DNA of 48,337 nt from Cytophagales bacterium. Its GTDB lineage: Bacteria > Bacteroidota > Bacteroidia > Cytophagales > Microscillaceae. Location: assembly GCA_013298075.1 (NCBI GenBank), contig JAAFJG010000031.1, positions 1 to 48,337 of the forward strand, read 5' to 3'. A program made the position numbers and the translations under genes. Positions 1,175-31,275 of this stretch are shown in pieces; the stretch's first letter is position 1, and every line of letters begins with the position of its first letter. The notes beneath the pieces were generated by a model, which ran no database searches, was not told where the DNA came from, and saw only the letters and a list, made by a program, of their open reading frames with translations.

Positions 1175-2557
1175 ATGAAAAAAATTATATTGTATATTTT
1201 TGTGGTTTTTGCTTGCATACCTAATATGTACGCACAAAAATCTGTTTTTTTGAGTGTATCTTTGGCAGGTATAGAACAACCTATGGAAGTTTTTACTTCT
1301 TTTGATAAAGCATCTAAAATACCTGAAAGAGTTTTACATTTGGATTTAAGCCACCAAAGAGGTTTTATTTTTAAGCAAGGTGCATTAAGTAAAATGAAAA
1401 ATTTACGCATCTTAAAACTTCATAACATTGATTTGCGTGAAGTTCCCGAAGATATTTTATTGCTAAATTCATTACAAGAATTAGATTTGGGACAAAATCC
1501 ATCTTTAAATCTAAGTAATACTTTTTTAACTTTACAAAAAATACCTTCTTTACAAAAAATATCTTTGGCAAATAGTAATTTGAGTAATTTACCCGCAGAA
1601 ATTGGTAAAATTACACAATTAAACGAGTTAGATTTGCATCAAAATAATTTAGAAGAATTTCCCAATGAATTTGTATATTTACAAAATTTGAGAACATTAT
1701 ATTTGCAATCAAATCGATTTACAAATATTCCCAAACAAATTACGAAACTCAAAAAACTATCAACGTTAGATTTTTATTTTAATAAAATTCAAGAAATTGA
1801 TGTAGATATTCAAAATTTATCTCAACTAACTTATCTCAATTTAAGTAATAATGCCATTTCTACTTTGCCCGAAAATTTTGCAGATATGAAGCTTTTGAAA
1901 AGATTAGATTTAAGTAAAAATGCTTTGTTGAATGTGAGTAGTAATTTTGTGGTTTTGGCGCGTTTGCCGCATTTAAAACACTTAAATTTGGCAGATTGTG
2001 GACTTTCTCGCCTGCCTGATGAGATTGGATTGTTTCAAAATTTAGAAGAATTATCTTTGGCAAATAATGGAATTGCACAATTAAATCCAAAAATTTCAGC
2101 ATTAACTTCTTTGAAAACTTTAATTTTAGATAAAAATAGATTTGTCAATTTGCCACCAAGTTTGGATAAATTGATACATTTAGAAAACTTTCATTTGGCT
2201 TCTAATCCTGATTTGAATTGGGAAAAAGTATCAAAAATTCTCGAAAAAATGACAAATTTAGTGTTTTTAAATATCAGTGATAGTGGAACTCATGTTTTTC
2301 CTGATGCTATCTCAAAACTAACTTTACTACAAATTTTACACGCAGATAACAATAAAATCACAACAATTCCTGACAATTTTATAAATTTATTTTATCTTCG
2401 TAAACTAAGTTTGAATAATAATCATATAAAATCTCTGCCTGATATTTTGAGTGAAATGCCACATTTACAAGAATTAAATATCAAAAATAATGAAATTGTT
2501 GTAGAAAAATTGGAAAAATATAAACAACAATTTTCAAATATAAGAATTCAAAATTAG
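1175..2557 (+). CDS. Secreted leucine-rich-repeat protein
   Basis: A 460-residue protein with an N-terminal signal peptide (hydrophobic core about residues 3-20, likely cut after MYA/Q). About sixteen leucine-rich repeats follow, of the form L..L.L..N.L..LP..I..L, and run almost to the C-terminus. Such repeats form a curved solenoid used for protein binding. No enzymatic domain, membrane anchor or sorting domain is visible, so the protein is probably periplasmic or exported. It lies 65 bases after the oxidase gene on the same strand and could be read through from it, but no functional link is evident. The binding partner cannot be inferred. Similar ROCO-type LRRs occur in Cytophagales, but no ROC GTPase is present here. 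Confidence 0.8.
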   Translation: MKKIILYIFVVFACIPNMYAQKSVFLSVSLAGIEQPMEVFTSFDKASKIPERVLHLDLSHQRGFIFKQGALSKMKNLRILKLHNIDLREVPEDILLLNSLQELDLGQNPSLNLSNTFLTLQKIPSLQKISLANSNLSNLPAEIGKITQLNELDLHQNNLEEFPNEFVYLQNLRTLYLQSNRFTNIPKQITKLKKLSTLDFYFNKIQEIDVDIQNLSQLTYLNLSNNAISTLPENFADMKLLKRLDLSKNALLNVSSNFVVLARLPHLKHLNLADCGLSRLPDEIGLFQNLEELSLANNGIAQLNPKISALTSLKTLILDKNRFVNLPPSLDKLIHLENFHLASNPDLNWEKVSKILEKMTNLVFLNISDSGTHVFPDAISKLTLLQILHADNNKITTIPDNFINLFYLRKLSLNNNHIKSLPDILSEMPHLQELNIKNNEIVVEKLEKYKQQFSNIRIQN

Positions 2558-2585
2558 TATTGAAAATATGATTTTTTTAAGTATA

Positions 2586-2717
2586 TTTTGATAATGACTT
2601 TTTAATTTTGTAAAAAAATATTTATTTTATTATCCCTTTCTCCTTGGTCTGTGTGCCACAGACCGAAATAGCTAGTAACTTTTATTTCGGTCTGTGTGCC
2701 ACAGACCAAGGATTAAA
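2586..2717 (+). repeat. Dumbbell hairpin repeat, copy A
   Basis: A 56-base A/T-rich leader beginning TTTTGATAATGAC and containing TAATTTTG precedes a long palindrome at 2642-2711 (CCTTGG...CCAAGG), then GATTAA. Each arm of the palindrome is itself a small hairpin (GGTCTGTGTGCCACAGACC), so the element can fold as a dumbbell. Here the two arms read the same way, whereas in copies C and D they are reverse complements. The downstream metallophosphoesterase starts 90 bases after the palindrome. Confidence 0.9.
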
Positions 2718-2801
2718 ATTAAAATCTCTCAAAAAAAAAACAAACCTTTTTCAGATACCGACACCACGACAAAACAAAAAGACAAAAAATAGAATTAAAA
2801 T

Positions 2802-3371
2802 ATGGACGCAAATAATATATGGTTTACTTCTGACCACCACTTTGGACACAAGAATATAATTGAATTTTCTAGAAGACCTTTTGCCAATGCTGACGAAATG
2901 AATGTAGAATTGGTAAAGCGTTGGAATGAGAAAGTTGGACAAGACGACTTAGTTTATCACTTGGGAGACTTTGCATTAATGTCAGCAGGAAAAGTTAGAC
3001 AATTAAGAAGTCAACTTAACGGAAGAATTTGTTTGATTACGGGAAATCACGAAAGTTCTGCTTTAGAATGTTCTGACATTTTTGAATGGATAAAAGATTA
3101 TTATGAATTGACAGTTTCGGACAGTGAAGCACATAAAGGACAAAGATTTATTGTATTGTTTCATTATGCAATGAGAGTTTGGAACGCAAGTCATTATGGA
3201 ACTTGGCATTTATATGGACATTCACACGGAGATTTACCAGACGATGAAACTTCGCTTTCATTTGACGTTGGTGTTGACAGCCACGAATTTTATCCTCTTT
3301 CATATCAAGATGTGAAAAACATAATGTCGAAGAAAAAATGGACACCACCTTTTGAACCAAGAAACAGATAG
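2802..3371 (+). CDS. Metallophosphoesterase family protein
   Basis: A 189-residue calcineurin-like phosphoesterase, probably a cytoplasmic dinuclear-metal phosphohydrolase. The metal-ligand motifs appear in order: D11-x-H13 in TSDHHFGH, G-D56, GNHE (81-84), H121 in LFHYAM and GHSH (139-142). There is no signal peptide. The protein belongs to the small single-domain branch found in mobile or phage contexts, and its substrate cannot be told from sequence. Codon choice (many GAC and GGA codons) looks less AT-biased than in neighbouring genes, hinting at transfer. It sits in an island flanked by the repeat at 2586 and its direct copy at 4584. The start is the ATG at 2802; an ORF crossing the hairpin upstream is not a gene. 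Confidence 0.85.
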   Translation: MDANNIWFTSDHHFGHKNIIEFSRRPFANADEMNVELVKRWNEKVGQDDLVYHLGDFALMSAGKVRQLRSQLNGRICLITGNHESSALECSDIFEWIKDYYELTVSDSEAHKGQRFIVLFHYAMRVWNASHYGTWHLYGHSHGDLPDDETSLSFDVGVDSHEFYPLSYQDVKNIMSKKKWTPPFEPRNR

Positions 3372-3760
3372 TATAAAAAGCCCAGCCACTAACAGAAGTT
3401 TTGCAAAAATGGGGCATTTGTACTAAATTTGGGCATTGGAATTCTATTGAACATTTGTACTTCGATTTCCTCCCACTGGTTTAAGTATAAAAAATAAAAA
3501 TAAACTGGTTTAAGTAACATTTCGTTTAATACTTAAAATAGTTGGGAGAAAATAAATAAAAAATAAATACAATTTTTTTAGATAAATAACGTTATAGGCA
3601 TAATATTTGATATTTTTCAGGCAGTAACTCAAAAAATTTGAAAGGTTTGAGTTTTTAATTGGAAAATCATATTAAAATAAATAAATTGAACTTTTTATTT
3701 GTGATTTTCGTTGTTACATTAGCCTTGATATACTAAAAAATTTTTAAAAGAGAAAATATT
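3372..3760. other. Island intergenic region with inverted motif
   Basis: No gene is seen. The first part (3380-3470) is comparatively G/C-rich. It is followed by ACTGGTTTAAGT twice (3475-3486, 3504-3515) and then an inverted, degenerate version ending GTTGGGAGAAA (about 3530-3551). The same TTTCC..CCCA(A)CTGGTTTAAGT string recurs at 4564-4585. The rest is A/T-rich spacer ahead of the toxin-antitoxin-like pair. Confidence 0.6.
3467..3551. repeat. ACTGGTTTAAGT boundary repeat, left
   Basis: ACTGGTTTAAGT occurs at 3475-3486 and 3504-3515, the first preceded by TTTCCTCCC. An imperfect inverted copy closes the block near 3530-3551. A related string (TTTCCCGCCCA-ACTGGTTTAAGT) ends the next gene pair at 4564-4585. 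Each accessory unit of the island is therefore followed by the same element. Confidence 0.65.
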
Positions 3761-4171
3761 ATGATGAATCAACATAAAAACAATTTTTTTGACACATTTT
3801 CAAAATTATCAGACTTTATGAACGATGAAGATAGAAAGAAAAAAACAAGAATGATAATAAATGAATTGGAAGTATTGAAATATACAGACATAAAAAAAGA
3901 AGATTTTATTTTTTATTATGGACAATATCAAACTTCAGTATTTCTAAGAGAAATGGCAGAAAATAACCTTATGTTTAAAAAATTCATACCTGAAGAAATA
4001 ATTTTGGTATGCAACAAAATGTTAGATTTTTTAGAGCCTATTGCTGATTTACTACCTTTTTATGCAAATGGAACAGCCACAGAAGAAGACTGGGAAGATT
4101 TGAAATGGGAGCAGAGTTTTAAAGAAAGTCCCGAAAAATTGAATAAAAATTTCGAGGCTTGGAGAGAATAG
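3761..4171 (+). CDS. Unknown protein, possible partner of downstream toxin
   Basis: A 136-residue soluble, acidic protein with no recognisable domain. It looks largely alpha-helical. The N-terminal 30 residues are charged (NDEDRKKKTR) and the C-terminal part is rich in Glu and Trp (EEDWEDLKWEQ). There is no signal peptide, membrane segment or obvious DNA-binding motif. It ends 21 bases before the RelE/ParE-like gene on the same strand, the spacing expected of a toxin-antitoxin operon. It is therefore a candidate non-classical antitoxin, larger than the usual 70-90 residues. That role is inferred from position only. The two tandem ATG codons at 3761 and 3764 make the exact start uncertain by one residue. 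Confidence 0.6.
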   Translation: MMNQHKNNFFDTFSKLSDFMNDEDRKKKTRMIINELEVLKYTDIKKEDFIFYYGQYQTSVFLREMAENNLMFKKFIPEEIILVCNKMLDFLEPIADLLPFYANGTATEEDWEDLKWEQSFKESPEKLNKNFEAWRE

Positions 4172-4192
4172 TATAACAAAATAAAGTAATGA

Positions 4193-4462
4193 ATGAAATC
4201 TAGGACAACAAAAAAATTCAGAGAATGTTTCTCTTTAATTCCAAAAGAAGTAAAGGAATTAGCCAAAAAAAATTATAAATTATGGCTACAAAATCATTAC
4301 TCAAACGGGCTTCGTTTTAAGAGTATAGACAAAAAAGACCCCAGAAAATACTCAATAAGAATAGGAAGCGGATATAGAGCATTAGGTGATTATAGCAGAA
4401 AAGAAGATGTTATTAGTTGGTATTGGATAGGAACTCACGAAGATTATAATAATTTATTGTAA
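4193..4462 (+). CDS. RelE/ParE-like toxin-fold protein
   Basis: An 89-residue basic protein with the layout of the RelE/ParE toxin superfamily. It has an N-terminal basic helical hairpin (residues 1-40), then beta strands containing RKYSIRIGSGYRALGDY (about 52-68) and a terminal WYWIGTHEDYNNLL. The IGSGYRALG and WIGTHEDY blocks are typical of a RelE/ParE branch that cleaves mRNA or poisons gyrase; which of these applies here is unknown. The upstream 136-residue gene is the only possible antitoxin in the operon and is not of a known antitoxin family that I recognise. A strong terminator follows at 4466-4503. The island context supports mobile origin. Confidence 0.7.
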   Translation: MKSRTTKKFRECFSLIPKEVKELAKKNYKLWLQNHYSNGLRFKSIDKKDPRKYSIRIGSGYRALGDYSRKEDVISWYWIGTHEDYNNLL

Positions 4463-4465
4463 AAA

Positions 4466-4503
4466 TAAAAAACACATCTATTAAATTTTAGATGTGTTTT
4501 TTG
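4466..4503 (+). terminator. Rho-independent terminator after the toxin-like gene
   Basis: AAAACACATCTA (to 4480) pairs with TAGATGTGTTTT (4489-4500) around a short A/T loop, followed by a T run. It lies 4 bases after the stop codon. Confidence 0.85.
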
Positions 4504-4583
4504 TTATTTAATGAATTGATTGAGTAATCATTACTAAAATAAAACCAAAATTTTTGATGACGTTTCCCGCCCAACTGGTTTAA

Positions 4584-4671
4584 GTTTGATAACGACTTTT
4601 TAATTTTGTAAATAAATATTTGGTTTATTATTCCTTTCCCCTTGGTCTGTGTGTCACAAACCAAGTATTAA
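4584..4671 (+). repeat. Dumbbell hairpin repeat, copy B (single arm)
   Basis: The leader TTTGATAACGACTTTTTAAT onward matches copies A and C closely. It is followed by a single small hairpin, CCTTGG...CCAAG (4640-4665), and TATTAA. The second arm is missing. The copy starts directly at the end of ACTGGTTTAAGT (4574-4585), so island boundary and repeat abut. Confidence 0.85.
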
Positions 4672-4678
4672 AAATTTC

Positions 4679-4770
4679 GGCTAAAGCCAACTATTAAATT
4701 TTATATTATCCTCCAGATAAATCTGGAGGCAATTCAAAAAATACATTTCAAAAAAAAATCATTTTCCTAA
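4679..4770 (+). repeat. CCTCCAG palindrome repeat, copy 2
   Basis: GGCTAAAGCC (4679-4688) is followed by CCTCCAGATAAATCTGGAGG (4710-4729) and the A-rich tail ending TTTTCCTAA. It is in the same orientation as copy 1. Confidence 0.85.
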
Positions 4771-4789
4771 AAAATGACCTCACTTATTA

Positions 4790-4835
4790 CACGTATATAA
4801 AGCGTAGGCGTTAACGACTAGGCTTTATATATGTG
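4790..4835. repeat. 46-base near-perfect palindrome
   Basis: The outer arms CACGTATATAAAGC and GCTTTATATATGTG pair with one mismatch. The centre is CGTTAACG (4809-4816), and two further symmetric mismatches lie at GTAGG/ACTAG. There is no loop. It does not belong to the other repeat families here and lies 38 bases beyond the stop codon of the DUF5686 gene, so it may act as that gene's terminator or as a protein-binding site. Confidence 0.7.
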
Positions 4836-4872
4836 AATATATTTCCAAAAAATAAAAGACAAATTTCCTACT

Positions 4873-7305
4873 CTAAAAAATAAATCCTAACTTAACTCCT
4901 TGATTTTGAGGCGAATAAGTTTCCCAACTTCTAAAATAATAAACACTTACAAAAGTAGTTTCTAAACCAATTCCACCTTCAAAATAGTTTTGTCTATTGG
5001 GAGTCCAAAGATAATTACCATTCAACACTAAATTTGGTTTCACTTTTTTGAGTAAAGGAATAGAATTAGTAATAAATCCACCAAAATTTTGCTCAAAATG
5101 TGCTTTGATATATTCTTGATTCGTGCTGTGCGAATAATAATCTAACAACTGAAAACTTCCCGCATCTTTTCTAAAAAAAATAGTTTCATTCCCCAAAAAA
5201 TGACGATAATCAATAAAACTCATTTGATTATTAGTCAAAAATTTTCCCGCTTCGACCTCAATATTTAGTTTTCCAAATACGCCCAAATTATAATCATCTG
5301 TCATATTCAAACTCATAAAATCATAATCTACTTCACTTCCTGCTGTTTTGATTCCTTTTCTATAAGACAAACGAAAAGTAGGATATTTTGAATCTATGGT
5401 AAATTTTCTATCAGGATAAATGGCATATTTTGCACCAAAATTAAAAGTCATTGTCCCACCCAAAGTCCAAGAAGTGCTGTTAGTAGATAAATTGGGTGCA
5501 TCTGCCAAAGTTTGCGGAATATTCGACGTAAATTCTCGCCCATCTACATTTCTCCATGTATAATCTAAGGCTGTATTTTGTAATTCACGCCTTTGTGCAT
5601 ATTCACTCACGCCTGCAAAGCGAATACCGGGCGTAATATCGTGAGCAAAAACAAATCTTCCGTAGGCTTTTTCATACATTTTTAGAAAATTTTGCTCGTC
5701 AAATAATGTATAAACAGAATTTAAAAATGGCGTAATCGAAGTTTGTCTGCTAAATTGTTCTACAAATTGTCCGCCTTCTGCTGTCAAAAAACCATTTTTT
5801 TGTGGTGCAAAATAAAACGAAGTACCTAATTTTCCTTGCCATTTTTCATTCGAAAATCCATAACGAATGGTTGGTTCGATAGAAAAAAAACGTCTATTTT
5901 CATACGTTTTTCTAAATGTAGGTGCAAAATTAAGCACCAAACCTTCAATCGTATTGTATTGAACCACATTAAATAAACCCGGAATTGAAAAACGAGTTTT
6001 TGAAAAACCATGACTATAATTATATCCAAACAAAATTTGCAAAGGTCTAAATTTATTTCTATGCCTATCTACTGAATCTTGATAAGGTTTCGTTTCTTTG
6101 ATAACCTGCAAACTATCTCTTCGTTTATAATCTTTTTTTTCCTCCGCACTCAAAGGCAAAGGTCTTAATTCTTCCCAATATTTATCATCACGTTTGTTGG
6201 CATCTTTTTCGACTGTAAAAGCAATCGATTTAAAATGTTTTTTTTGAAAATTAGGTTGTAAATTATAATTTGAAAAAAAATGATTAAAATAACCACTTCC
6301 TTCAAAACCTAATACTTTGAAATGAAAAGAAATTTTTTGAGAAGATGGAATCCAAACTTCAGTCGAATCATTGATTTTATATGGGACATAATTTTGTTGC
6401 ACAGACGCAGAATCAATAAACTCCATTACTTCTTTTCGCAAACTCAATTCTGCACTATAAATCCGCCAACTTCCTTCCATAATATACACAAAACCGCTAT
6501 ACGCAGGTGCATTTAGTCGTTTTGGAATAAGTTGAATTTTATGAATAATTTGATTATTTTCTCTCGAAGTTCCGATGAGTTTATAGTCATAATAACCCAT
6601 TGCATTTGATGCAATCGGCGAAACTACACCTCTTGGCGACATTTCTTGTCCGTTGATATTTTCGTACAAATTTACCCACGCATCAGACGCTTGATTGAAA
6701 CTAAAACCGCGATTATTTCCGCTCACACGCGAAGAAATCATCTTTTCAGAATATTGTTTTACCTGTTTAAAATCAACTTCTGCAATACTTTCGGATAAAT
6801 AAACAATGCCCGTATCTAAAGTTATATTTTGCCCAAACATCGATTTTGGTCTTTTATTTATCCTTTGCAAACCCTTGGTATAAATTCGGCATTGCGAACT
6901 TTTAATTTCTTCTTTGAGATAATATTTTCTTTTTTCTTGTGCTTTTTCGATGATATAATAGGCTCTATCTTTGGTGGACGCAGAAATAGTAACCGCTTCC
7001 AACATATATAATTCGGTTTCTAATTTGACGTTTAACACAATATCATTGTCAGTGATATCGATATTTTTTTCGAAATTTTTATAGCCAATCGATTGAAAAA
7101 CAATCGTATAATTTCCTGCTTTATTGATAGTAAATTCGTATTGACCTTTTTCGTTTGAAGTACTCGAACTATTTAAACCTTTGACATAAATGCTTGCAAA
7201 TTCGATGGGTTCACCTTTTTCGCTGGTAATTTTTCCTGTAATTTTTGCCGCTTCGGCAAAATAAGGTGATAAAATAATAATTAAAAATAAAAAAAGAATA
7301 CGCAT
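4873..7305 (-). CDS. DUF5686 / carboxypeptidase-regulatory-like outer membrane protein
   Basis: An 810-residue exported protein. A signal peptide (residues 1-19, MRILFLFLIIILSPYFAEA) precedes a carboxypeptidase-regulatory-like beta-sandwich (about 20-105, with GKITSEKGEPIEFASIYVKG and QSIGYKNFEKNI). The rest (about 110-810) matches the long DUF5686 layout. Its C-terminal half alternates polar and hydrophobic residues and ends in an aromatic residue (KLGFIF), as in outer-membrane beta-barrels. The family is widespread in Bacteroidota and of unknown function. The beta-sandwich plus barrel resembles TonB-dependent receptors, but there is no plug domain. The gene appears monocistronic, since a yajC terminator lies upstream. 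The start is the ATG at 7305. Confidence 0.85.
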   Translation of the reverse strand: MRILFLFLIIILSPYFAEAAKITGKITSEKGEPIEFASIYVKGLNSSSTSNEKGQYEFTINKAGNYTIVFQSIGYKNFEKNIDITDNDIVLNVKLETELYMLEAVTISASTKDRAYYIIEKAQEKRKYYLKEEIKSSQCRIYTKGLQRINKRPKSMFGQNITLDTGIVYLSESIAEVDFKQVKQYSEKMISSRVSGNNRGFSFNQASDAWVNLYENINGQEMSPRGVVSPIASNAMGYYDYKLIGTSRENNQIIHKIQLIPKRLNAPAYSGFVYIMEGSWRIYSAELSLRKEVMEFIDSASVQQNYVPYKINDSTEVWIPSSQKISFHFKVLGFEGSGYFNHFFSNYNLQPNFQKKHFKSIAFTVEKDANKRDDKYWEELRPLPLSAEEKKDYKRRDSLQVIKETKPYQDSVDRHRNKFRPLQILFGYNYSHGFSKTRFSIPGLFNVVQYNTIEGLVLNFAPTFRKTYENRRFFSIEPTIRYGFSNEKWQGKLGTSFYFAPQKNGFLTAEGGQFVEQFSRQTSITPFLNSVYTLFDEQNFLKMYEKAYGRFVFAHDITPGIRFAGVSEYAQRRELQNTALDYTWRNVDGREFTSNIPQTLADAPNLSTNSTSWTLGGTMTFNFGAKYAIYPDRKFTIDSKYPTFRLSYRKGIKTAGSEVDYDFMSLNMTDDYNLGVFGKLNIEVEAGKFLTNNQMSFIDYRHFLGNETIFFRKDAGSFQLLDYYSHSTNQEYIKAHFEQNFGGFITNSIPLLKKVKPNLVLNGNYLWTPNRQNYFEGGIGLETTFVSVYYFRSWETYSPQNQGVKLGFIF

Positions 7306-7478
7306 AATAATTTTGTAAAAGTGTTTTTGAAGTATTAAGTTTTTGATAAAATAAAATATTTTCTACTCCATCTATAAGAGTATATTTTTAATGAATAGGT
7401 TGCATAAAAGTAAAAAAAATTACACTTTTATTTTTTTTGTTTTGAGATGATAATTAAAAAACACGCTTTAAATACAAA

Positions 7479-9547: not shown

Positions 9548-9731
9548 ACCAAATAGTTATGCAAAATTAATTCTCATTTTTTAGCATAGTTCTATTGTTC
9601 ATCTTCAAATATTTTATATATCTTCAAAAAATAAATATCTGTGATTTTAAAAATAAAAACAATTTTTTTATCTTTTACATATTTTTATATTTTTTTTGCT
9701 CATTTTATTTTAAAAAGTAATATTTTTTTGT

Positions 9732-9739
9732 TATTTTTG
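9732..9739 (+). promoter_or_regulatory. Putative -7 box, type IIG gene 1
   Basis: TATTTTTG lies 31 bases before the ATG. The identical box and leader precede the second copy (13132-13139). No clear -33 TTG is visible at the expected distance. Confidence 0.45.
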
Positions 9740-9770
9740 CCAAAAATAAATCATCAAAAAAATAGTTCAA

Positions 9771-12700
9771 ATGTTTGCACAAAATAATATTTTTTCTTCT
9801 AAATTTTTACAAGAAAATAGAATCGAAATTAAACAATTTTTTTCTAAAATACAAAATTTAGAAAATAAAGTAAAAATATTACTCGATTGGTACAACGAAC
9901 TAAAAAGCGGAAAAGTAGCACAACGCACAGAAGAACAACAAAAAAGCGAATTTTTAGAAAAAATATTTGTACAAGTGCTTGATTATCAAGGCAATGCAAA
10001 CGATTGGAAATTAGAAAAAGAATATAAATTACCTGATGGCTCAATCGCAGATAGTTTATTGGGTTTTTTTGGAGTGCAAAAAAAACCTTTGATAAAAGTT
10101 GCTATCGAAATAAAAAGATTACACATCGATTTGGATAAAGCACAAAATCAAAGATTCGATAAATTTACGCCTGTCCAACAAGGTTTTCATTACGCACAAC
10201 AAGCACCTGCGAGTTGTGATTGGGTAATTGTGAGTAATCTGGACGAAATTCGGTTGTATTATGCCAAAGATTATAATCGATATGAAAGTTTTTTGTTCCA
10301 CGAATTGTTGTTAGATATGGATAGTCAAGAAAAAAATATAGGCAAAAGATTTCCCAATCTATCTAAATTTTTCTTCTTATTATCTTACGGAAATCTATAT
10401 AATGTTACGAGCAATACAGATTTAGAATCGATGCCAATTACCAAAAAATTGTATCAATATCGAATCAAAAGACTCGAAGATATTTCTACCGCTTTTTATA
10501 ATGAATACAAACAATATAGGCAAAAACTATATTTACATATCAAAAAACAAAATAAAACACTTAATTTAGACGAAGAAAATTGTTTTTATTTGGCGTATAA
10601 AATTTTTGATAGATTGATTTTTATGCAATTTGCACAAGAAACTGAAATTGTCAATCGCAAAGTTTTAAAAGATTTTGTTTTATTAGTCAAAAATTTACCT
10701 TCTAATTTGCCTATGTTTTGGACAAATATAAAGGCAATTTTTAAGTCTTTTGATGAAGGATACAAAAATGATATTCCACCTTTTAATGGCGAACTTTTTA
10801 AACCTATTGACATTTTAGAACAAATAGAAGTTCAAAATGATATTTTAACAGAAATTACAGATTTTTTAGAAAAGTATGACTTTAAAGACGAACTAAAAGT
10901 CGATATTTTGGGACATATTTTTGAACAATCTATTGCTGATGTAGCGCATTTTGAAAATATATCTACCCAAAATCTAAGAACAAAAGATGGCGTATTTTAT
11001 ACTCCCGAACACATTACGGATTTTATTATTCAAGAAACATTAGTTAAATATTTGCAAGAAGAAAAAGAAAAAATTTATCAAGATTTATGCATAGATTTTT
11101 TGAGTGAAATCGAGCAGGATTTTGATAGATGGAAAGAAGAAAATTTTAATTTTACGCACACACAAGCGATAGAAATATACGCCGATTTTTTTCAAAAATA
11201 TAAAAATGTATTGCAAAATATAAAAATTTTAGACCCTGCTTGTGGTTCAGGTGCTTTTTTGACTAAAATTTTTGATTATTTATTAAAAGAAAATTTAATC
11301 ATAGAAAAAGAATTAAACAAATTTGAAAATAAAATGTATGAACAATTTTTTGAGCATAAAAATAGCAATACAACTATCAAAAAACCAAAAATAAAACTCA
11401 ATAAATCACAAGCAAATGCTTTATTTTTTGAAGAAGAAATAAAAATCAACACAGAAAAGAAAAAAATGGCAAATATAGGTCGCCAAATTTTGCTCAATAA
11501 TATTTTTGGAACAGACATCAATAGAGAAAGTATCGAAATTACTAAACTTTCGCTTTGGCTCAAAACCGCCAATAGATACGGAGTTACGTTGGCAAATTTG
11601 CAAAATAATATTCAACAAGGAAATTCATTAATCGAAGATAAAAATATAGATAAAAGGGCTTTTGACTGGAAAAATCAACAATTTGACGTGATTATTGGCA
11701 ATCCACCTTATTTTTCGATTTCTATTCAAGATGATTATTTTTTGAATTATTATCAAAAAAACTTTAAAGTTTTTGAAAGAACGACAGATATTTATTGCTT
11801 ATTTTTTGAGAAAGCATTACAATTATTAAAACCAAACGGCGTTTTGGGTTATATCACCTCGAAACAATGGACGAATACAAATTATGGCAAAAAACTAAGA
11901 AATTTTTTAGTAGAAAATGCCAATCCAACGCTTTTTATTGATTTTAATGGCATCAAAATTTTTAAAGATGCGACTGTTGATTCTTCGATTTTGATTATCA
12001 AACAAGAAAAATGTACTTTTCAAATGCGCGCGTGTTCGTTGCCCAATGATTTTAATCTCAAAGAAAATAATATCAAAGAATATGCAGACGCAAATTTGAT
12101 ATGGTTGAAAGATTTGAAAGCAGAAAAATGGACTATCGCCCAAGAAAATGTATTAAATCTACAACAAAAAATAAAAAATATTGGCTCTTTTTTCAAAGAT
12201 TGGGATGCAAAAATTAATTATGGTATAAAAACAGGTCTGAACGAGGCTTTTATTATTGATGAAAATAAAAAAAATGAATTGATAAAAAAAGACAAAAAAA
12301 GTGCAGAATTACTGATGCCACTTTTGCGTGGGCGTGATGTGCATCAATACGAAAAAAAATGTGCAAATTTATGGGTAATTTGTACTTTTCCAGCAAAAAA
12401 AATCAATATAGATGATTATAAAGCGATTAAACAGCATTTTATAGATTTTGGGAAACATAAATTAGAACAAACAGGTGAAGAAGGAAGTAGAAAAAAAACT
12501 ACTAATAAATGGTTTGAAACTCAAGACGCAACAGGTTATTGGGTACATTTTTCATCGCCAAAAATTATTTATCCCGAAACCACGAGTCGAGGTTTTGATT
12601 TTTATTTGGATAAAGAAGGAATTTATATCGATAAAACTTGTTTTATGATCACAGGCGAACATTTAACTTTTTTAAACGGCATTTTAACTTCTTCTTTGAT

Positions 12701-12986
12701 GGATTGGTATTTGAAAAAAGAAATACGAACTTTGGGAAAAACAGGTTTTCAATATTCAAAACAATATATGGAAAATATTCCTTTGCCAATTTTATCTGAT
12801 TTGAATCAACATTTATATCAAAAAATGACAGAAATAACAGAAAAATTAATCGAACTCACCAACCAAAAACAAAAAAATACTCCACCATTTTATCAACTCA
12901 AAAATGAATTAGATGCGTTGGTTTTTAAAATGTATGATGTAAATGAACAAGAAAAAGAAATAATTTTAGCGAGTTTGAAAGTGTAA
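9771..12986 (+). CDS. Type IIG restriction-modification enzyme, copy 1
   Basis: A 1071-residue single-chain restriction endonuclease and adenine methyltransferase of the Eco57I-like class. An N-terminal PD-(D/E)xK-like nuclease region is visible (about 55-165), with candidate residues D94, E113 and K115 (AIEIKR). A helical linker follows. The N6-adenine methylase core has DPACGSGAF (motif I, 488-496) and NPPY (motif IV, 644-647). A C-terminal target-recognition region with a TaqI-like specificity layout covers about 800-1071. The protein should cut and methylate its own DNA target without separate subunits. It is followed 184 bases later by a near-identical copy. The main difference is residues 864-930, inside the recognition region. 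The nuclease residues appear intact, so the enzyme is probably active. The target sequence cannot be read off. Confidence 0.88.
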   Translation: MFAQNNIFSSKFLQENRIEIKQFFSKIQNLENKVKILLDWYNELKSGKVAQRTEEQQKSEFLEKIFVQVLDYQGNANDWKLEKEYKLPDGSIADSLLGFFGVQKKPLIKVAIEIKRLHIDLDKAQNQRFDKFTPVQQGFHYAQQAPASCDWVIVSNLDEIRLYYAKDYNRYESFLFHELLLDMDSQEKNIGKRFPNLSKFFFLLSYGNLYNVTSNTDLESMPITKKLYQYRIKRLEDISTAFYNEYKQYRQKLYLHIKKQNKTLNLDEENCFYLAYKIFDRLIFMQFAQETEIVNRKVLKDFVLLVKNLPSNLPMFWTNIKAIFKSFDEGYKNDIPPFNGELFKPIDILEQIEVQNDILTEITDFLEKYDFKDELKVDILGHIFEQSIADVAHFENISTQNLRTKDGVFYTPEHITDFIIQETLVKYLQEEKEKIYQDLCIDFLSEIEQDFDRWKEENFNFTHTQAIEIYADFFQKYKNVLQNIKILDPACGSGAFLTKIFDYLLKENLIIEKELNKFENKMYEQFFEHKNSNTTIKKPKIKLNKSQANALFFEEEIKINTEKKKMANIGRQILLNNIFGTDINRESIEITKLSLWLKTANRYGVTLANLQNNIQQGNSLIEDKNIDKRAFDWKNQQFDVIIGNPPYFSISIQDDYFLNYYQKNFKVFERTTDIYCLFFEKALQLLKPNGVLGYITSKQWTNTNYGKKLRNFLVENANPTLFIDFNGIKIFKDATVDSSILIIKQEKCTFQMRACSLPNDFNLKENNIKEYADANLIWLKDLKAEKWTIAQENVLNLQQKIKNIGSFFKDWDAKINYGIKTGLNEAFIIDENKKNELIKKDKKSAELLMPLLRGRDVHQYEKKCANLWVICTFPAKKINIDDYKAIKQHFIDFGKHKLEQTGEEGSRKKTTNKWFETQDATGYWVHFSSPKIIYPETTSRGFDFYLDKEGIYIDKTCFMITGEHLTFLNGILTSSLMDWYLKKEIRTLGKTGFQYSKQYMENIPLPILSDLNQHLYQKMTEITEKLIELTNQKQKNTPPFYQLKNELDALVFKMYDVNEQEKEIILASLKV

Positions 12987-13073
12987 AATAGTAATCGTAC
13001 AAAATAAAAGTATAAAAATATTTTATGATAAATAAAGTTGTAACGAGTTTGGAACAGCATCATAATTTTTCGC

Positions 13074-13170
13074 CTTTTACATATTTTTCAAATTTTTACT
13101 CATTTTATTTTAAAAAGTAATGTTTTTTTGTTATTTTTGCCAAAAATAAATCATCAAAAAAATAGTTCAA
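13074..13170 (+). repeat. Duplicated upstream leader of the type IIG genes
   Basis: From CTTTTACATATTTTT to the ATG this segment repeats 9671-9770 with few changes. The last 50 bases, including the TATTTTTG box (13132-13139), are nearly identical. This places the left edge of the tandem duplication about 100 bases before each start codon. The repeat period is 3400 bases. Confidence 0.8.
13132..13139 (+). promoter_or_regulatory. Putative -7 box, type IIG gene 2
   Basis: TATTTTTG, duplicated with the leader, lies 31 bases before the ATG. If functional, both copies carry their own promoter. Confidence 0.45.
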
Positions 13171-16100
13171 ATGTTTGCACAAAATAATATTTTTTCTTCT
13201 AAATTTTTACAAGAAAATAGAATCGAAATTAAACAATTTTTTTCTAAAATACAAAACTTAGAAAATAAAGTAAAAATATTACTCGATTGGTACAACGAAC
13301 TAAAAAGCGGAAAAGTAGCACAACGGACAGAAGAACAACAAAAAAGCGAATTTTTAGAAAAAATATTTGTACAAGTGCTTGATTATCAAGGCAATGCAAA
13401 CGATTGGAAATTAGAAAAAGAATATAAATTACCTGATGGCTCAATAGCAGATAGTTTATTAGGATTTTTTGGAGTGCAAAAAAAACCTTTGATAAAAGTT
13501 GCTATCGAAATAAAAAGATTACACATCGATTTGGATAAAGCACAAAATCAAAGATTCGATAAATTTACGCCCGTCCAACAAGGTTTTCATTACGCACAAC
13601 AAACACCCGCGACTTGTGATTGGGTAATTGTGAGTAATCTGGACGAAATTCGATTGTATTATGCCAAAGATTATAATCGATATGAAAGTTTTTTATTTCA
13701 CGAATTGTTGTTAGATATGGATAGTCAAGAAAAAAATATAGGCAAAAGATTTCCCAATCTATCTAAATTTTTCTTCTTATTATCCTACGGAAATCTATAC
13801 AATGTTACGAGCAATACAGATTTAGAATCGATGCCAATTACCAAAAAATTGTATCAATATCGAATCAAAAGACTCGAAGATATTTCTACCGCTTTTTATA
13901 ATGAATACAAACAATATAGGCAAAAACTATATTTACATATCAAAAAACAAAATAAAACACTTAATTTAGACGAAGAAAATTGTTTTTATTTGGCGTATAA
14001 AATTTTTGATAGATTGATTTTTATGCAATTTGCACAAGAAACTGAAATTGTCAATCGCAAAGTTTTAAAAGATTTTGTTTTATTAGTCAAAAATTTACCT
14101 TCTAATTTGCCTATGTTTTGGACAAATATAAAGGCAATTTTTAAGTCTTTTGATGAAGGATACAAAAATGATATTCCACCTTTTAATGGCGAACTTTTTA
14201 AACCTATTGACATTTTAGAACAAATAGAAGTTCAAAATGATATTTTAACAGAAATTACAGATTTTTTAGAAAAGTATGACTTTAAAGACGAACTAAAAGT
14301 CGATATTTTGGGACATATTTTTGAACAATCTATTGCTGATGTAGCGCATTTTGAAAATATATCTACCCAAAATCTAAGAACAAAAGATGGCGTATTTTAT
14401 ACTCCCGAACACATTACGGATTTTATTATTCAAGAAACATTAGTTAAATATTTGCAAGAAGAAAAAGAAAAAATTTATCAAGATTTATGCATAGATTTTT
14501 TGAGTGAAATCGAGCAGGATTTTGATAGATGGAAAGAAGAAAATTTTAATTTTACGCACACACAAGCGATAGAAATATACGCCGATTTTTTTCAAAAATA
14601 TAAAAATGTATTGCAAAATATAAAAATTTTAGACCCTGCTTGTGGTTCAGGTGCTTTTTTGACTAAAATTTTTGATTATTTATTAAAAGAAAATTTAATC
14701 ATAGAAAAAGAATTAAACAAATTTGAAAATAAAATGTATGAACAATTTTTTGAGCATAAAAATAGCAATACAACTATCAAAAAACCAAAAATAAAACTCA
14801 ATAAATCACAAGCAAATGCTTTATTTTTTGAAGAAGAAATAAAAATCAACACAGAAAAGAAAAAAATGGCAAATATAGGTCGCCAAATTTTGCTCAATAA
14901 TATTTTTGGAACAGACATCAATAGAGAAAGTATCGAAATTACTAAACTTTCGCTTTGGCTCAAAACCGCCAATAGATACGGAGTTACGTTGGCAAATTTG
15001 CAAAATAATATTCAACAAGGAAATTCATTAATCGAAGATAAAAATATAGATAAAAGGGCTTTTGACTGGAAAAATCAACAATTTGACGTGATTATTGGCA
15101 ATCCACCTTATTTTTCGATTTCTATTCAAGATGATTATTTTTTGAATTATTATCAAAAAAACTTTAAAGTTTTTGAAAGAACGACAGATATTTATTGCTT
15201 ATTTTTTGAGAAAGCATTACAATTATTAAAACCAAACGGCGTTTTGGGTTATATCACCTCGAAACAATGGACGAATACAAATTATGGCAAAAAACTAAGA
15301 AATTTTTTAGTAGAAAATGCCAATCCAACGCTTTTTATTGATTTTAATGGCATCAAAATTTTTAAAGATGCGACTGTTGATTCTTCGATTTTGATTATCA
15401 AACAAGAAAAATGTACTTTTCAAATGCGCGCGTGTTCGTTGCCCAATGATTTTAATCTCAAAGAAAATAATATCAAAGAATATGCAGACGCAAATTTGAT
15501 ATGGTTGAAAGATTTGAAAGCAGAAAAATGGACTATCGCCCAAGAAAATGTATTAAATCTACAACAAAAAATAAAAAATATTGGCTCTTTTTTCAAAGAT
15601 TGGGATATAAAAATTAATTATGGTATAAAAACAGGTTTAAACGAGGCTTTTATTATTGATGAAAATAAAAAAAATGAATTGATAAAAAAAGACAAAAAAA
15701 GTGCAGAACTACTTATGCCACTTTTGCGTGGGCGTGATGTGCATCAATACGAAAAAAAATGGGCAAATTTATATTTAATTCTCACCAAAAATGGAGTGAA
15801 TATTCAAAATTATAAAGCAATTTTTGAACATTTAAAAACATTTGGAGAAAGTATTAAAAATCGTTCAGACCAAGGCGAAAATTGGTGGAATTTGCGGGCT
15901 TGTAGTTATTATGATAAATTTTTGGAAGAAAAAATTATTTATCCCGAAACTACGAGTCGAGGTTTTGATTTTTATTTGGATAAAGAAGGAATTTATATTG
16001 ATAAAACTTGTTTTATGATGACAGGCGAACATTTAACTTTTTTAAACGGCATTTTAACTTCTTCTTTGATGGATTGGTATTTGAAAAAAGAAATACGAAC

Positions 16101-16356
16101 TTTGGGAAAAACAGGTTTTCAATATTCAAAACAATATATGGAAAATATTCCTTTGCCAATTTTATCTGATTTAAATCAACATTTATATCAAAAAATGACA
16201 GAAATAACAGAAAAACTAATCGAACTCACCAACCAAAAACAAAAAAATACTCCACCATTTTATCAACTCAAAAACGAATTAGATGCGTTGGTTTTTAAAA
16301 TGTATGATGTAAATGAACAAGAAAAAGATATAATTTTGGCTACTTTGAAAGTGTAA
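13171..16356 (+). CDS. Type IIG restriction-modification enzyme, copy 2
   Basis: A 1061-residue tandem paralogue of the preceding gene with the same nuclease residues (D94, E113, K115), methylase motifs (DPACGSGAF 488-496, NPPY 644-647) and C-terminal end. Outside the recognition segment I find only about six amino-acid changes (A145T, S148T and A818I-type, plus I-to-M and two at the extreme C-terminus). Residues 864-920 are unrelated in detail to 864-930 of copy 1 and ten residues shorter; both copies rejoin at KIIYPETTSRGF. The copy should therefore recognise a different DNA target. No frameshift or stop is present, so both genes are intact. It ends 113 bases before the RNase Z gene. Confidence 0.88.
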   Translation: MFAQNNIFSSKFLQENRIEIKQFFSKIQNLENKVKILLDWYNELKSGKVAQRTEEQQKSEFLEKIFVQVLDYQGNANDWKLEKEYKLPDGSIADSLLGFFGVQKKPLIKVAIEIKRLHIDLDKAQNQRFDKFTPVQQGFHYAQQTPATCDWVIVSNLDEIRLYYAKDYNRYESFLFHELLLDMDSQEKNIGKRFPNLSKFFFLLSYGNLYNVTSNTDLESMPITKKLYQYRIKRLEDISTAFYNEYKQYRQKLYLHIKKQNKTLNLDEENCFYLAYKIFDRLIFMQFAQETEIVNRKVLKDFVLLVKNLPSNLPMFWTNIKAIFKSFDEGYKNDIPPFNGELFKPIDILEQIEVQNDILTEITDFLEKYDFKDELKVDILGHIFEQSIADVAHFENISTQNLRTKDGVFYTPEHITDFIIQETLVKYLQEEKEKIYQDLCIDFLSEIEQDFDRWKEENFNFTHTQAIEIYADFFQKYKNVLQNIKILDPACGSGAFLTKIFDYLLKENLIIEKELNKFENKMYEQFFEHKNSNTTIKKPKIKLNKSQANALFFEEEIKINTEKKKMANIGRQILLNNIFGTDINRESIEITKLSLWLKTANRYGVTLANLQNNIQQGNSLIEDKNIDKRAFDWKNQQFDVIIGNPPYFSISIQDDYFLNYYQKNFKVFERTTDIYCLFFEKALQLLKPNGVLGYITSKQWTNTNYGKKLRNFLVENANPTLFIDFNGIKIFKDATVDSSILIIKQEKCTFQMRACSLPNDFNLKENNIKEYADANLIWLKDLKAEKWTIAQENVLNLQQKIKNIGSFFKDWDIKINYGIKTGLNEAFIIDENKKNELIKKDKKSAELLMPLLRGRDVHQYEKKWANLYLILTKNGVNIQNYKAIFEHLKTFGESIKNRSDQGENWWNLRACSYYDKFLEEKIIYPETTSRGFDFYLDKEGIYIDKTCFMMTGEHLTFLNGILTSSLMDWYLKKEIRTLGKTGFQYSKQYMENIPLPILSDLNQHLYQKMTEITEKLIELTNQKQKNTPPFYQLKNELDALVFKMYDVNEQEKDIILATLKV

Positions 16357-29538: not shown

Positions 29539-31275
29539 TTAGTTTCTTGTTGATGCTTCTCTGATTACTTTTTCCAAATTATCACTTGTTAATTCATATT
29601 GATTTAATTGTGCAATGTTACTTTGTTTGATGTGTGTTTTTGTTATTTGTAAATAATCAAGATAATTATTTTCTGAAAAATCCGAATACTCAGAAAAATA
29701 ATCTGTATGAATAGGCAATAATTCTAAATCACTTCTCAATACTTTATGTGTGGAAAATAATCTATTAAAAAGCCAATTAATAATTTCACTATTGAGCAAA
29801 TCAGTAAGTTGTTTATTTGTAATATTGATATTTATAGGAATACATACATTTGCACTATTCAAAATAAACCGTTGTGCAGTATCACAAAAAAAGCATAAAT
29901 TAGAAGAAATAAACTTATAAATAAGTTTTTCTTTGGCTTGGTACATTTTTAATGGGGCAACTTGCTGAAAATTTGAAAAATCATTTAATATAAAAGTTTT
30001 AGGCTCTTTTAAGCCATTTTTTGTAATATCAGAACCTTTATAAATTGGAACATAATTTTCTTTTTCTGTATCACTACAAAATCTTTCGTTATTTCCTGTT
30101 ACAATACCCAACGCCCATGTAGCCTTTTGTTTTAATGTAATATGTTTTGTTGCGTATAATTTTTCTATTACTTTTGTTTCATTTTCATTTGCCCAAAAAT
30201 TAAAAATCATTTTTGGATTTTGTTTAAAAGAATCCAAACTTCTTTTAAAAGTTACATCACCCAAACAACATTCTATTTCATTTGATATTGAATTTGTATT
30301 TTCAATAATAATGGTTTGTGCTTTCGTTACCAAACCTTTAAATGCTTTGTCATAATCTATAAAACGCAAGATTTTTTTTGTGCTTATTTTCTTTCTTATA
30401 TCTTCAAAAGTTGTGATATTAAAAAATGCTTCTTGCACCAAAAAACCCAAAATACCGACTTGTTTGAGTATATGTAGGCTTGCACCCATAAACAAAGATG
30501 TAGTATCCAAACTATTACCACAACCATATTTTAGCGCAAATTTTTCTTTATTTTCTTTGTCAATTTTTTTGCCCCAAGGCGGATTTGTAAGTATTAAATC
30601 AAAAAATAATCCTTTTTCATTCAATTTAAAAGCCTCTTGTAAAAAATCACCTACTTTTATATGTGGTGTTTCAAAGCCAAATTCTTGTTTTATACGTTCT
30701 TTTGTGATAAAAACTGCATTTTCGTCTATATCAAAACCATATACATTTTCAGGAGAAATGCCCGATTTTATGGCTTCAATAATAAAATTGCCTGAACCAC
30801 AACAAGGGTCTAAAAATTTAAAGTGATTATCAATATTATTGTCAATTATTATATTTTTAAACATATCTTTCACCACCCAAGAAGGCGTGTAATAAATGCC
30901 TTCTTTGTTGCGATAGGCATTTGACAAAGTGTTTTCGTATTCAATACCAAGTTTTTCACCATCAATATTTTTACGATTAAAATTTTCAATAAATGAATTT
31001 ATTTTATTGGAGATTTTTTCATTATTAAGGTTATCTTTTGGTAATTTATCTTCTTTCAATGATTTATTTGCTCTTAAATTTAACTTTTCTTTGCCTGCAA
31101 TATTTGTCATAAAATTATCAAAAGAATCTTTGGTAATCACGCCTTTGCTTAACATTTCTAAATAACCTGTTTTTATCCAATTACGAATAGTTGCAGTAGA
31201 AACATTTGCTTTTTTAGAGGCAATTTCAATCGTAAAACCCAATATTTCTACTTCTTTAAATAAATTTGATTGCAT
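29539..31275 (-). CDS. Solitary N6-adenine DNA methylase with N-terminal HTH
   Basis: A 578-residue protein. The N-terminal helix-turn-helix of MerR/excisionase type (about 10-58, TIEIASKKANVSTATIRNWIKTGYLEM) is unusual for a methylase. The catalytic core has GIYYTPSWVV (127-135), motif I DPCCGSGNF (156-164) and motif IV NPPW (231-234), so it is an N6-adenine methyltransferase of the Eco57I/TaqI-like gamma class. The C-terminal half (about 350-560) is a specificity-type domain with KEPKTFILNDF and ICIPININITN-like segments. No restriction endonuclease is adjacent and no nuclease motif is visible in the protein, so it looks like an orphan methylase. Possible roles are regulation or protection against a restriction enzyme encoded elsewhere. 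Confidence 0.85.
   Translation of the reverse strand: MQSNLFKEVEILGFTIEIASKKANVSTATIRNWIKTGYLEMLSKGVITKDSFDNFMTNIAGKEKLNLRANKSLKEDKLPKDNLNNEKISNKINSFIENFNRKNIDGEKLGIEYENTLSNAYRNKEGIYYTPSWVVKDMFKNIIIDNNIDNHFKFLDPCCGSGNFIIEAIKSGISPENVYGFDIDENAVFITKERIKQEFGFETPHIKVGDFLQEAFKLNEKGLFFDLILTNPPWGKKIDKENKEKFALKYGCGNSLDTTSLFMGASLHILKQVGILGFLVQEAFFNITTFEDIRKKISTKKILRFIDYDKAFKGLVTKAQTIIIENTNSISNEIECCLGDVTFKRSLDSFKQNPKMIFNFWANENETKVIEKLYATKHITLKQKATWALGIVTGNNERFCSDTEKENYVPIYKGSDITKNGLKEPKTFILNDFSNFQQVAPLKMYQAKEKLIYKFISSNLCFFCDTAQRFILNSANVCIPININITNKQLTDLLNSEIINWLFNRLFSTHKVLRSDLELLPIHTDYFSEYSDFSENNYLDYLQITKTHIKQSNIAQLNQYELTSDNLEKVIREASTRN

Follow-up and report, generated by a model that had tools for sequence, protein, structure and literature searches.

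Tandem type IIG restriction-modification genes that differ in one segment of their specificity domain in a Cytophagales draft genome

The stretch analysed here (the window) is the whole of contig C80, 48,337 bp long, from a 4.71-Mb Cytophagales draft genome in 153 contigs (completeness 97.88, contamination 1.1). It carries two complete type IIG restriction-modification genes side by side on the same strand, which are nearly identical except for one block within the specificity domain. We consider it probable that they belong to a multi-specificity type IIG gene family diversified by homologous recombination, and form a tandem pair with shared catalysis and different readers of the outer base pairs of the target. 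The features on which this is based are as follows.

9771 to 12986, forward strand: copy 1, type IIG restriction-modification gene of 1071 amino acids (aa) with a class A block (open reading frame, ORF; Pfam Eco57I, TaqI_C and MmeI_Mtase; PADLOC REase_MTase_IIG, 1.5e-96)
13171 to 16356, forward strand: copy 2, type IIG restriction-modification gene of 1061 aa with a class B block (ORF; Pfam; PADLOC REase_MTase_IIG, 1.3e-101)
12360 to 12560, forward strand: swapped specificity block of copy 1, residues 864-930, 201 bp
15760 to 15930, forward strand: swapped specificity block of copy 2, residues 864-920, 171 bp, the form common to relatives
10035 to 10115, forward strand: predicted PD-(D/E)XK-type nuclease motif region of copy 1 (D94, E113, K115; EIK)
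11232 to 11711, forward strand: methylase motif I (DPACGSG, residues 488-494) through motif IV (NPPY, residues 644-647) of copy 1

An earlier note, made from the letters alone, had described two intact type IIG genes 3400 bases apart. Both frames are open with a start-to-start offset of 3400, and the type IIG assignment is borne out by PADLOC, Pfam, conserved residues and the structure matches described below, with the MmeI_N profile scoring below its cut-off. Near the N terminus, D94, E113 and K115 are the residues expected of a PD-(D/E)XK nuclease and are nearly invariant in an alignment of 32 relatives, among which the methylase motifs are invariant. The motif order in copy 1 is that of the gamma class, with the S-adenosylmethionine motif I DPACGSG at 488 followed by NPPY at 644 and the TaqI_C specificity domain at 850-1005.

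The swapped block and the bases it may read

The residue numbers given for the block by the earlier note proved exact on re-checking and, as it had proposed, the swap is located in the C-terminal recognition region, inside TaqI_C; after the block the copies rejoin at KIIYPETT, residue 931 in copy 1 and 921 in copy 2. The same note called the blocks dissimilar, but they are homologous (19 of 57 aligned residues are identical, against >99% identity in the rest of the protein) and each class is present in other enzymes. The shared residues indicate two versions of a single segment of the specificity domain. The block of copy 2 is 83% identical to that of the sister species (G001), 74% to that of L082 and 64% to that of G012/L079, and over the first 800 residues the enzymes of G001, L082 and G012 are 80, 57 and 54% identical respectively. 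The block of copy 1 is 55-62% identical to the blocks of eight enzymes (L084, L092, L095, L096, L098, L103, L109 and L131) with a nuclease-methylase part (first 800 residues) just 27-31% identical to that of copy 1. The simplest account would be that copy 2 keeps the inherited block and copy 1 received another class, although an old second form that was lost in relatives is possible. The pair would have arisen by tandem duplication of one type IIG gene, and the class distribution suggests that recombination in the conserved flanks then built the other-class block into copy 1.

What the block reads can be approached through CamA, a DNA-adenine methylase with DNA-bound structures, which is matched by a profile of the 32 relatives (E 1.3e-68). 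It is also the best structural match of an AlphaFold model, made of copy 1 only (mean predicted local distance difference test score, pLDDT, 83; Z 30.7 over 540 residues, root-mean-square deviation 3.7); the same model matches MmeI with Z 25.6 over 662 residues. In the sequence profile alignment the block corresponds to approximately residues 387-450 of CamA. According to the accessible part of the CamA report (PMC8187626), Arg425 contacts base pair 1, Trp439 pairs 1 and 2, Arg441 pair 2, and Gln438 pairs 2 and 3, touching T3; the equivalent positions fall in the swapped block. The same part of that report has Gln346 and Ile349 reading pair 3, His171 pairs 3 and 4, and Ser472, Ala473 and Tyr521 pair 4, with Ser514 and Ile517 contacting the rearranged pair adjoining the target, and all of these align outside the block, where the copies are identical or nearly so.

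Two other cases show a comparable division, as far as the accessible text of each report goes. In MmeI, recognition of the first two base pairs falls to TRD-N, the N-terminal half of the specificity domain (target recognition domain, TRD), and that of the others to TRD-C (PMC4833311), and in Helicobacter pylori type IIG enzymes a partial change of the recognition domain alters some target positions only (PMC3936762). By homology, the swap would cover the readers of the outer two to three base pairs and spare those nearest to the methylated adenine. From the CamA-aligned outer-base readers in the block and the MmeI and H. pylori parallels, the two target motifs are predicted to overlap, being related but different at the outer two to three pairs. 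The earlier suggestion of two isospecies with different targets is refined by this rather than replaced: both copies look functional (dN/dS far below 1, see below), but the swap covers only the outer-base part and the motifs should share the remainder. If both enzymes are made, the cell would restrict and protect two related targets at once.

A redundant duplicate, in which the swap leaves the target unchanged and the pair is transient, is very unlikely. Such a duplicate would fit the near-identity of all catalytic parts and of the second half of the specificity domain, and the homology of the blocks. Against it, identity in the block (19 of 57 residues) is far below that of the remaining protein, base-reading positions of CamA align with the block and each class persists in distant enzymes.

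Divergence, a probable conversion tract and the search for a switch

Outside the block, 2970 coding sites were compared (at 9771-12316 and 12563-12986) and 30 substitutions were found, in 28 codons, six of them with a residue change. The nuclease and methylase parts, which had been described as the same, are therefore nearly but not fully so. Nonsynonymous (dN) and synonymous (dS) divergence between the copies are 0.0039 and 0.111 at 9771-10403, 0.0187 and 0.192 at 12183-12315, and 0.0088 and 0.093 at 12561-12983. Both copies are intact and have been under purifying selection since they diverged, and the mostly synonymous character of the substitutions suggests that both have been kept functional.

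The substitutions are absent from the middle of the genes:

10401 to 12206, forward strand: substitution-free stretch of copy 1, 1806 bp, a probable gene-conversion tract
13801 to 15606, forward strand: its counterpart in copy 2, 1806 bp

None of 100,000 random placements gave a gap of this length (the longest was 1154), under a null of uniform placement that takes no account of rate variation along the gene. As synonymous divergence beside the tract is about 10%, an unaided gap of 1806 bp is hard to explain despite the uniform null, and the tract suggests recent gene conversion between the copies. Such conversion would have homogenised the middle of the genes after the block was exchanged, with the draft state of the assembly as a caveat that is taken up below.

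Upstream, the copies have a leader in common:

9699 to 9770, forward strand: shared leader of copy 1, with TATTTTTG at 9732
13099 to 13170, forward strand: shared leader of copy 2, with TATTTTTG at 13132

A shared leader and promoter box had been noted before. The leader is common to both genes but short (approximately 70 bp, with one difference), and the copies diverge above about 9670 and at their stop codons. The box is present at both, but the density of TANNTTTG in the window is 1.84 per kb per strand, so the box alone is weak evidence for a promoter. As the DNA is AT-rich and the box frequent in it, the promoter claim was kept weak.

No tandem repeat was found at the locus. Among the 25 of 47 inverted-repeat pairs listed none was long; the arms are short, AT-rich and 70-82% complementary, the longest having 39 nt at 72%. 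None of the 20 neighbour proteins scanned from the ORFs of the window was a recombinase. A phase-variable switch, invertible or based on a repeat tract, was therefore rejected on the scans made, and a regulated switch is not supported.

The neighbours of the pair are of housekeeping type, with an M28 peptidase upstream and a metallo-beta-lactamase-fold protein and a SpoU methylase downstream. Among the ORFs of the window no companion methylase gene directly adjoins the pair. A methylase of 578 aa with Eco57I and TaqI_C domains and without a nuclease part is encoded at 29542-31275 on the reverse strand, and is apparently an orphan. Rfam gave no matches in the window at the gathering threshold.

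Further type IIG families in the genome and in a sister species

The same genome carries several further type IIG families of like build, outside the window that the earlier note covered, on contigs C104, C84/C28/C103, C129 and C1. The pair would then be one member of a wider genomic set in which catalytic halves are kept alike and specificity halves differ. On contig C104 four genes follow one another (928, 620, 568 and 942 aa), then the beginning of a fifth, and the 620- and 568-aa genes (L067 6894-10465) encode methylase and TaqI_C domains without a nuclease part. Across the first three genes the DNA identity per 100 bp is 85-100% in the methylase part, then falls to approximately 43-70% and returns to 97-100% in the last 100 bp. 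Both nuclease-less genes start 2 bp past the preceding stop codon and have the same short leader, and a 628-aa frame similar to them is found in another genus (G009 C230).

Contigs C84, C28 and C103 together carry a family of four genes, of which two are truncated at contig ends, as well as two further gene starts; from the starts at C84:2-223 and C28:4648-4818 it is plausible that the three contigs join as one array. The C84 and C28b genes are 98.0% identical over 1662 bp and thereafter about 15-50% identical in protein. On C129 a full gene is followed by the contig-cut start of a short nuclease-less gene. Contig C1 (L070 3379-15157) has two 1340-aa IIG-like genes with an ATPase-like gene between them, which diverge only near the C-terminus; each precedes a different SMC/AAA-type ATPase gene. 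For the constant parts of the C104 and C84 families (the fourth C104 gene left out) dN is 0-0.012 and dS 0.19-0.24, with the exception of C104_1 and C104_3 (dS 0.0096), and for the C1 pair dN is 0.0525 and dS 0.166. Tandem, partly truncated copies of another gene family, with near-identical stretches, are present at L070 15522-17827 and L073 424-1709, and tandem duplication may be common in this genome.

Comparison with G001 separates the histories of the two halves. The catalytic parts of C84 and C28b, 98.0% identical to each other, are 84.6% identical to the G001 copy, and the specificity half of C28b has an 82.1% counterpart in G001 (C265), of which C84 has just the tail. The specificity halves thus predate the species split and the catalytic parts have been evened out since, in concerted evolution of the C84/C28 family. 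G001 has kept the left flank of the C104 array and a counterpart of C104_1 (86% and 83% for its two ends), behind which there is just a remnant of the start of the next, nuclease-less gene (L223 585-646; G001:C125) and then unrelated DNA; the remnant indicates that the make-up of the array changed between the species. The G001 counterpart of the window pair is split across two contigs, at residues 152 and 158, a break that is at most a possible hint of a second copy there. With high identity within the pair, counterparts for the block of copy 2 and the block of copy 1 not seen in G001, duplication after the species split is possible.

The earlier note had also proposed that the pair stores an alternative specificity which recombination could switch. 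The historical part of this proposal stands, given the 1806-bp tract and the concerted evolution of the sister family, but the switch finds no support in the scans made for repeats and recombinases. A specificity reservoir, with a single working copy at any moment and the direct repeats recombining, by conversion or unequal crossing-over, often enough to serve as a switch at the level of the population, seems unlikely. The long direct repeats, a conversion tract ending near the specificity block, the several such families in the genome and an array make-up differing between two species (in G001 the C104_1 counterpart and remnant only) agree with such a reservoir; both copies however have intact frames, their own leader and a record of purifying selection, neither tandem repeat, listed long inverted repeat nor scanned recombinase accompanies them, and the traces reveal evolution and no rate.

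More tentatively, the families could form a dedicated system for diversifying specificity, in which recombination between full type IIG genes and nuclease-less genes with homogenised catalytic parts passes on recognition modules, complete or in part, and creates new defence specificities, with the genes that lack a nuclease acting both as donors and as protective methylases; we regard this as a rather doubtful possibility.

Several observations weigh against a recombining multi-specificity family. Its pattern is not uniform: contig C2 has one such gene alone, the two C1 genes diverge in another part of the C-terminus, and C104_4 is more distant from C104_1, to which it is 63-74% identical over most of the catalytic part they share and 87% in the tail. 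The model of copy 1 is poor inside the block, with pLDDT <50 at 904-912 and 917-920, so the placement of residues there rests on the sequence alignment. The main alternative to conversion is that the 1806-bp identical tract is a repeat collapsed in the draft assembly, and the C104_1/C104_3 pair is also without differences over approximately 500 bp; other paralogs in the assembly retain 2-7% differences, which speaks against a collapse.

That the whole pair is an artefact, either two alleles of one gene from a mixed population placed end to end or a collapsed repeat, is most improbable. The number of contigs, the other type IIG families cut at contig ends and the position of the identical tract, furthest from unique sequence, are what such an error would leave, but the copies differ in their upstream DNA and are separated by a unique intergenic stretch, and by reasoning the given order is the only walk through a two-copy repeat. 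The differences kept by other paralogs and the completeness and contamination values argue in the same direction.

Rarity of the arrangement and comparison with known systems

A second matching frame was searched for at 121 loci, made up of 80 from a genome-contig collection, 40 from whole genomes and the window. All 121 had a match and seven had more than one matching frame, three of these (L080, L102 and L127) being among the 80 contig relatives. L102 and L127 were rejected as tandem copies, as each consists of two pieces without mutual similarity and is a split gene. A second adjacent homologous frame is therefore seen in 1 of 80 contig relatives (L080, where it is cut by the contig end), a lower bound as many of these contigs are short, and this supports the view of the earlier note that the arrangement is unusual. 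Indirectly, several relatives in genomes of the same family stop at contig edges, as repeats would cause. An order-wide search matched 34 of 291 genomes, but scored two candidates per genome, so that arrays could not be told from single genes, and was not used for frequency. The literature searched gave no report of tandem type IIG arrays with shared catalytic and different specificity halves, but subscription journals were thinly covered and such a report may exist.

In another family of the same order (L218; G022:C13:53000-66000), a type IIG gene at 2308-5646 faces an inverted partial specificity frame at 6735-7430. A 301-nt inverted repeat, 98% complementary, has its arms at 4961-5261 and 6913-7213 and adjoins a resolvase-family recombinase and an IS4/5-type transposase. 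This locus is a candidate invertible specificity switch of a type IIG enzyme.

Type IIG enzymes and domain movement are known already. Like the type IIG/IIL enzymes Eco57I, MmeI, BpuSI and DrdV, the copies have a nuclease, a gamma-class N6-adenine methylase and a C-terminal specificity domain in one chain, but here there are two near-identical tandem copies with different forms of one part of that domain. CamA has the same methylase and specificity fold as copy 1 (Z 30.7), but is an orphan methylase without a nuclease and without a tandem pair. Eco57I-type pairs consist of a type IIG enzyme and a separate methylase, and resemble the C104 array, where nuclease-less methylase-specificity genes are next to a full gene; unlike in those pairs, the methylase-only genes of C104 have a methylase part in common with their neighbour but differ in the specificity half. 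In the H. pylori type IIG enzymes, an added partial recognition domain likewise substitutes part of the specificity domain and only some target base pairs change, but the accessible text describes a change by frameshift repair in one gene (PMC3936762), whereas here there are two complete genes. In domain movement (DOMO) of H. pylori type I and type IIG S genes, recognition domains pass from gene to gene through recombination at conserved flanking sequence, and type IIG backbones that share several TRDs are known (accessible parts of PMC3077401 and PMC10423294); as far as those parts go, the exchange is mainly between alleles of different strains and S subunits, whereas side-by-side paralogs in one genome are involved here. 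The combination of adjacent paralogs with homogenised catalytic halves, an outer-base reader that has been partly exchanged and members lacking the nuclease seems to be a new one.

As a single recognition domain in a type IIG enzyme determines where it cuts and what it protects, one step can be enough for such an enzyme to acquire a new specificity. The tandem pair is a natural test of whether the recognition domain splits into an outer-base part and a part next to the methylated adenine, and the wider set would offer a natural stock of interchangeable recognition modules on one enzyme body and help to assign residues to bases.

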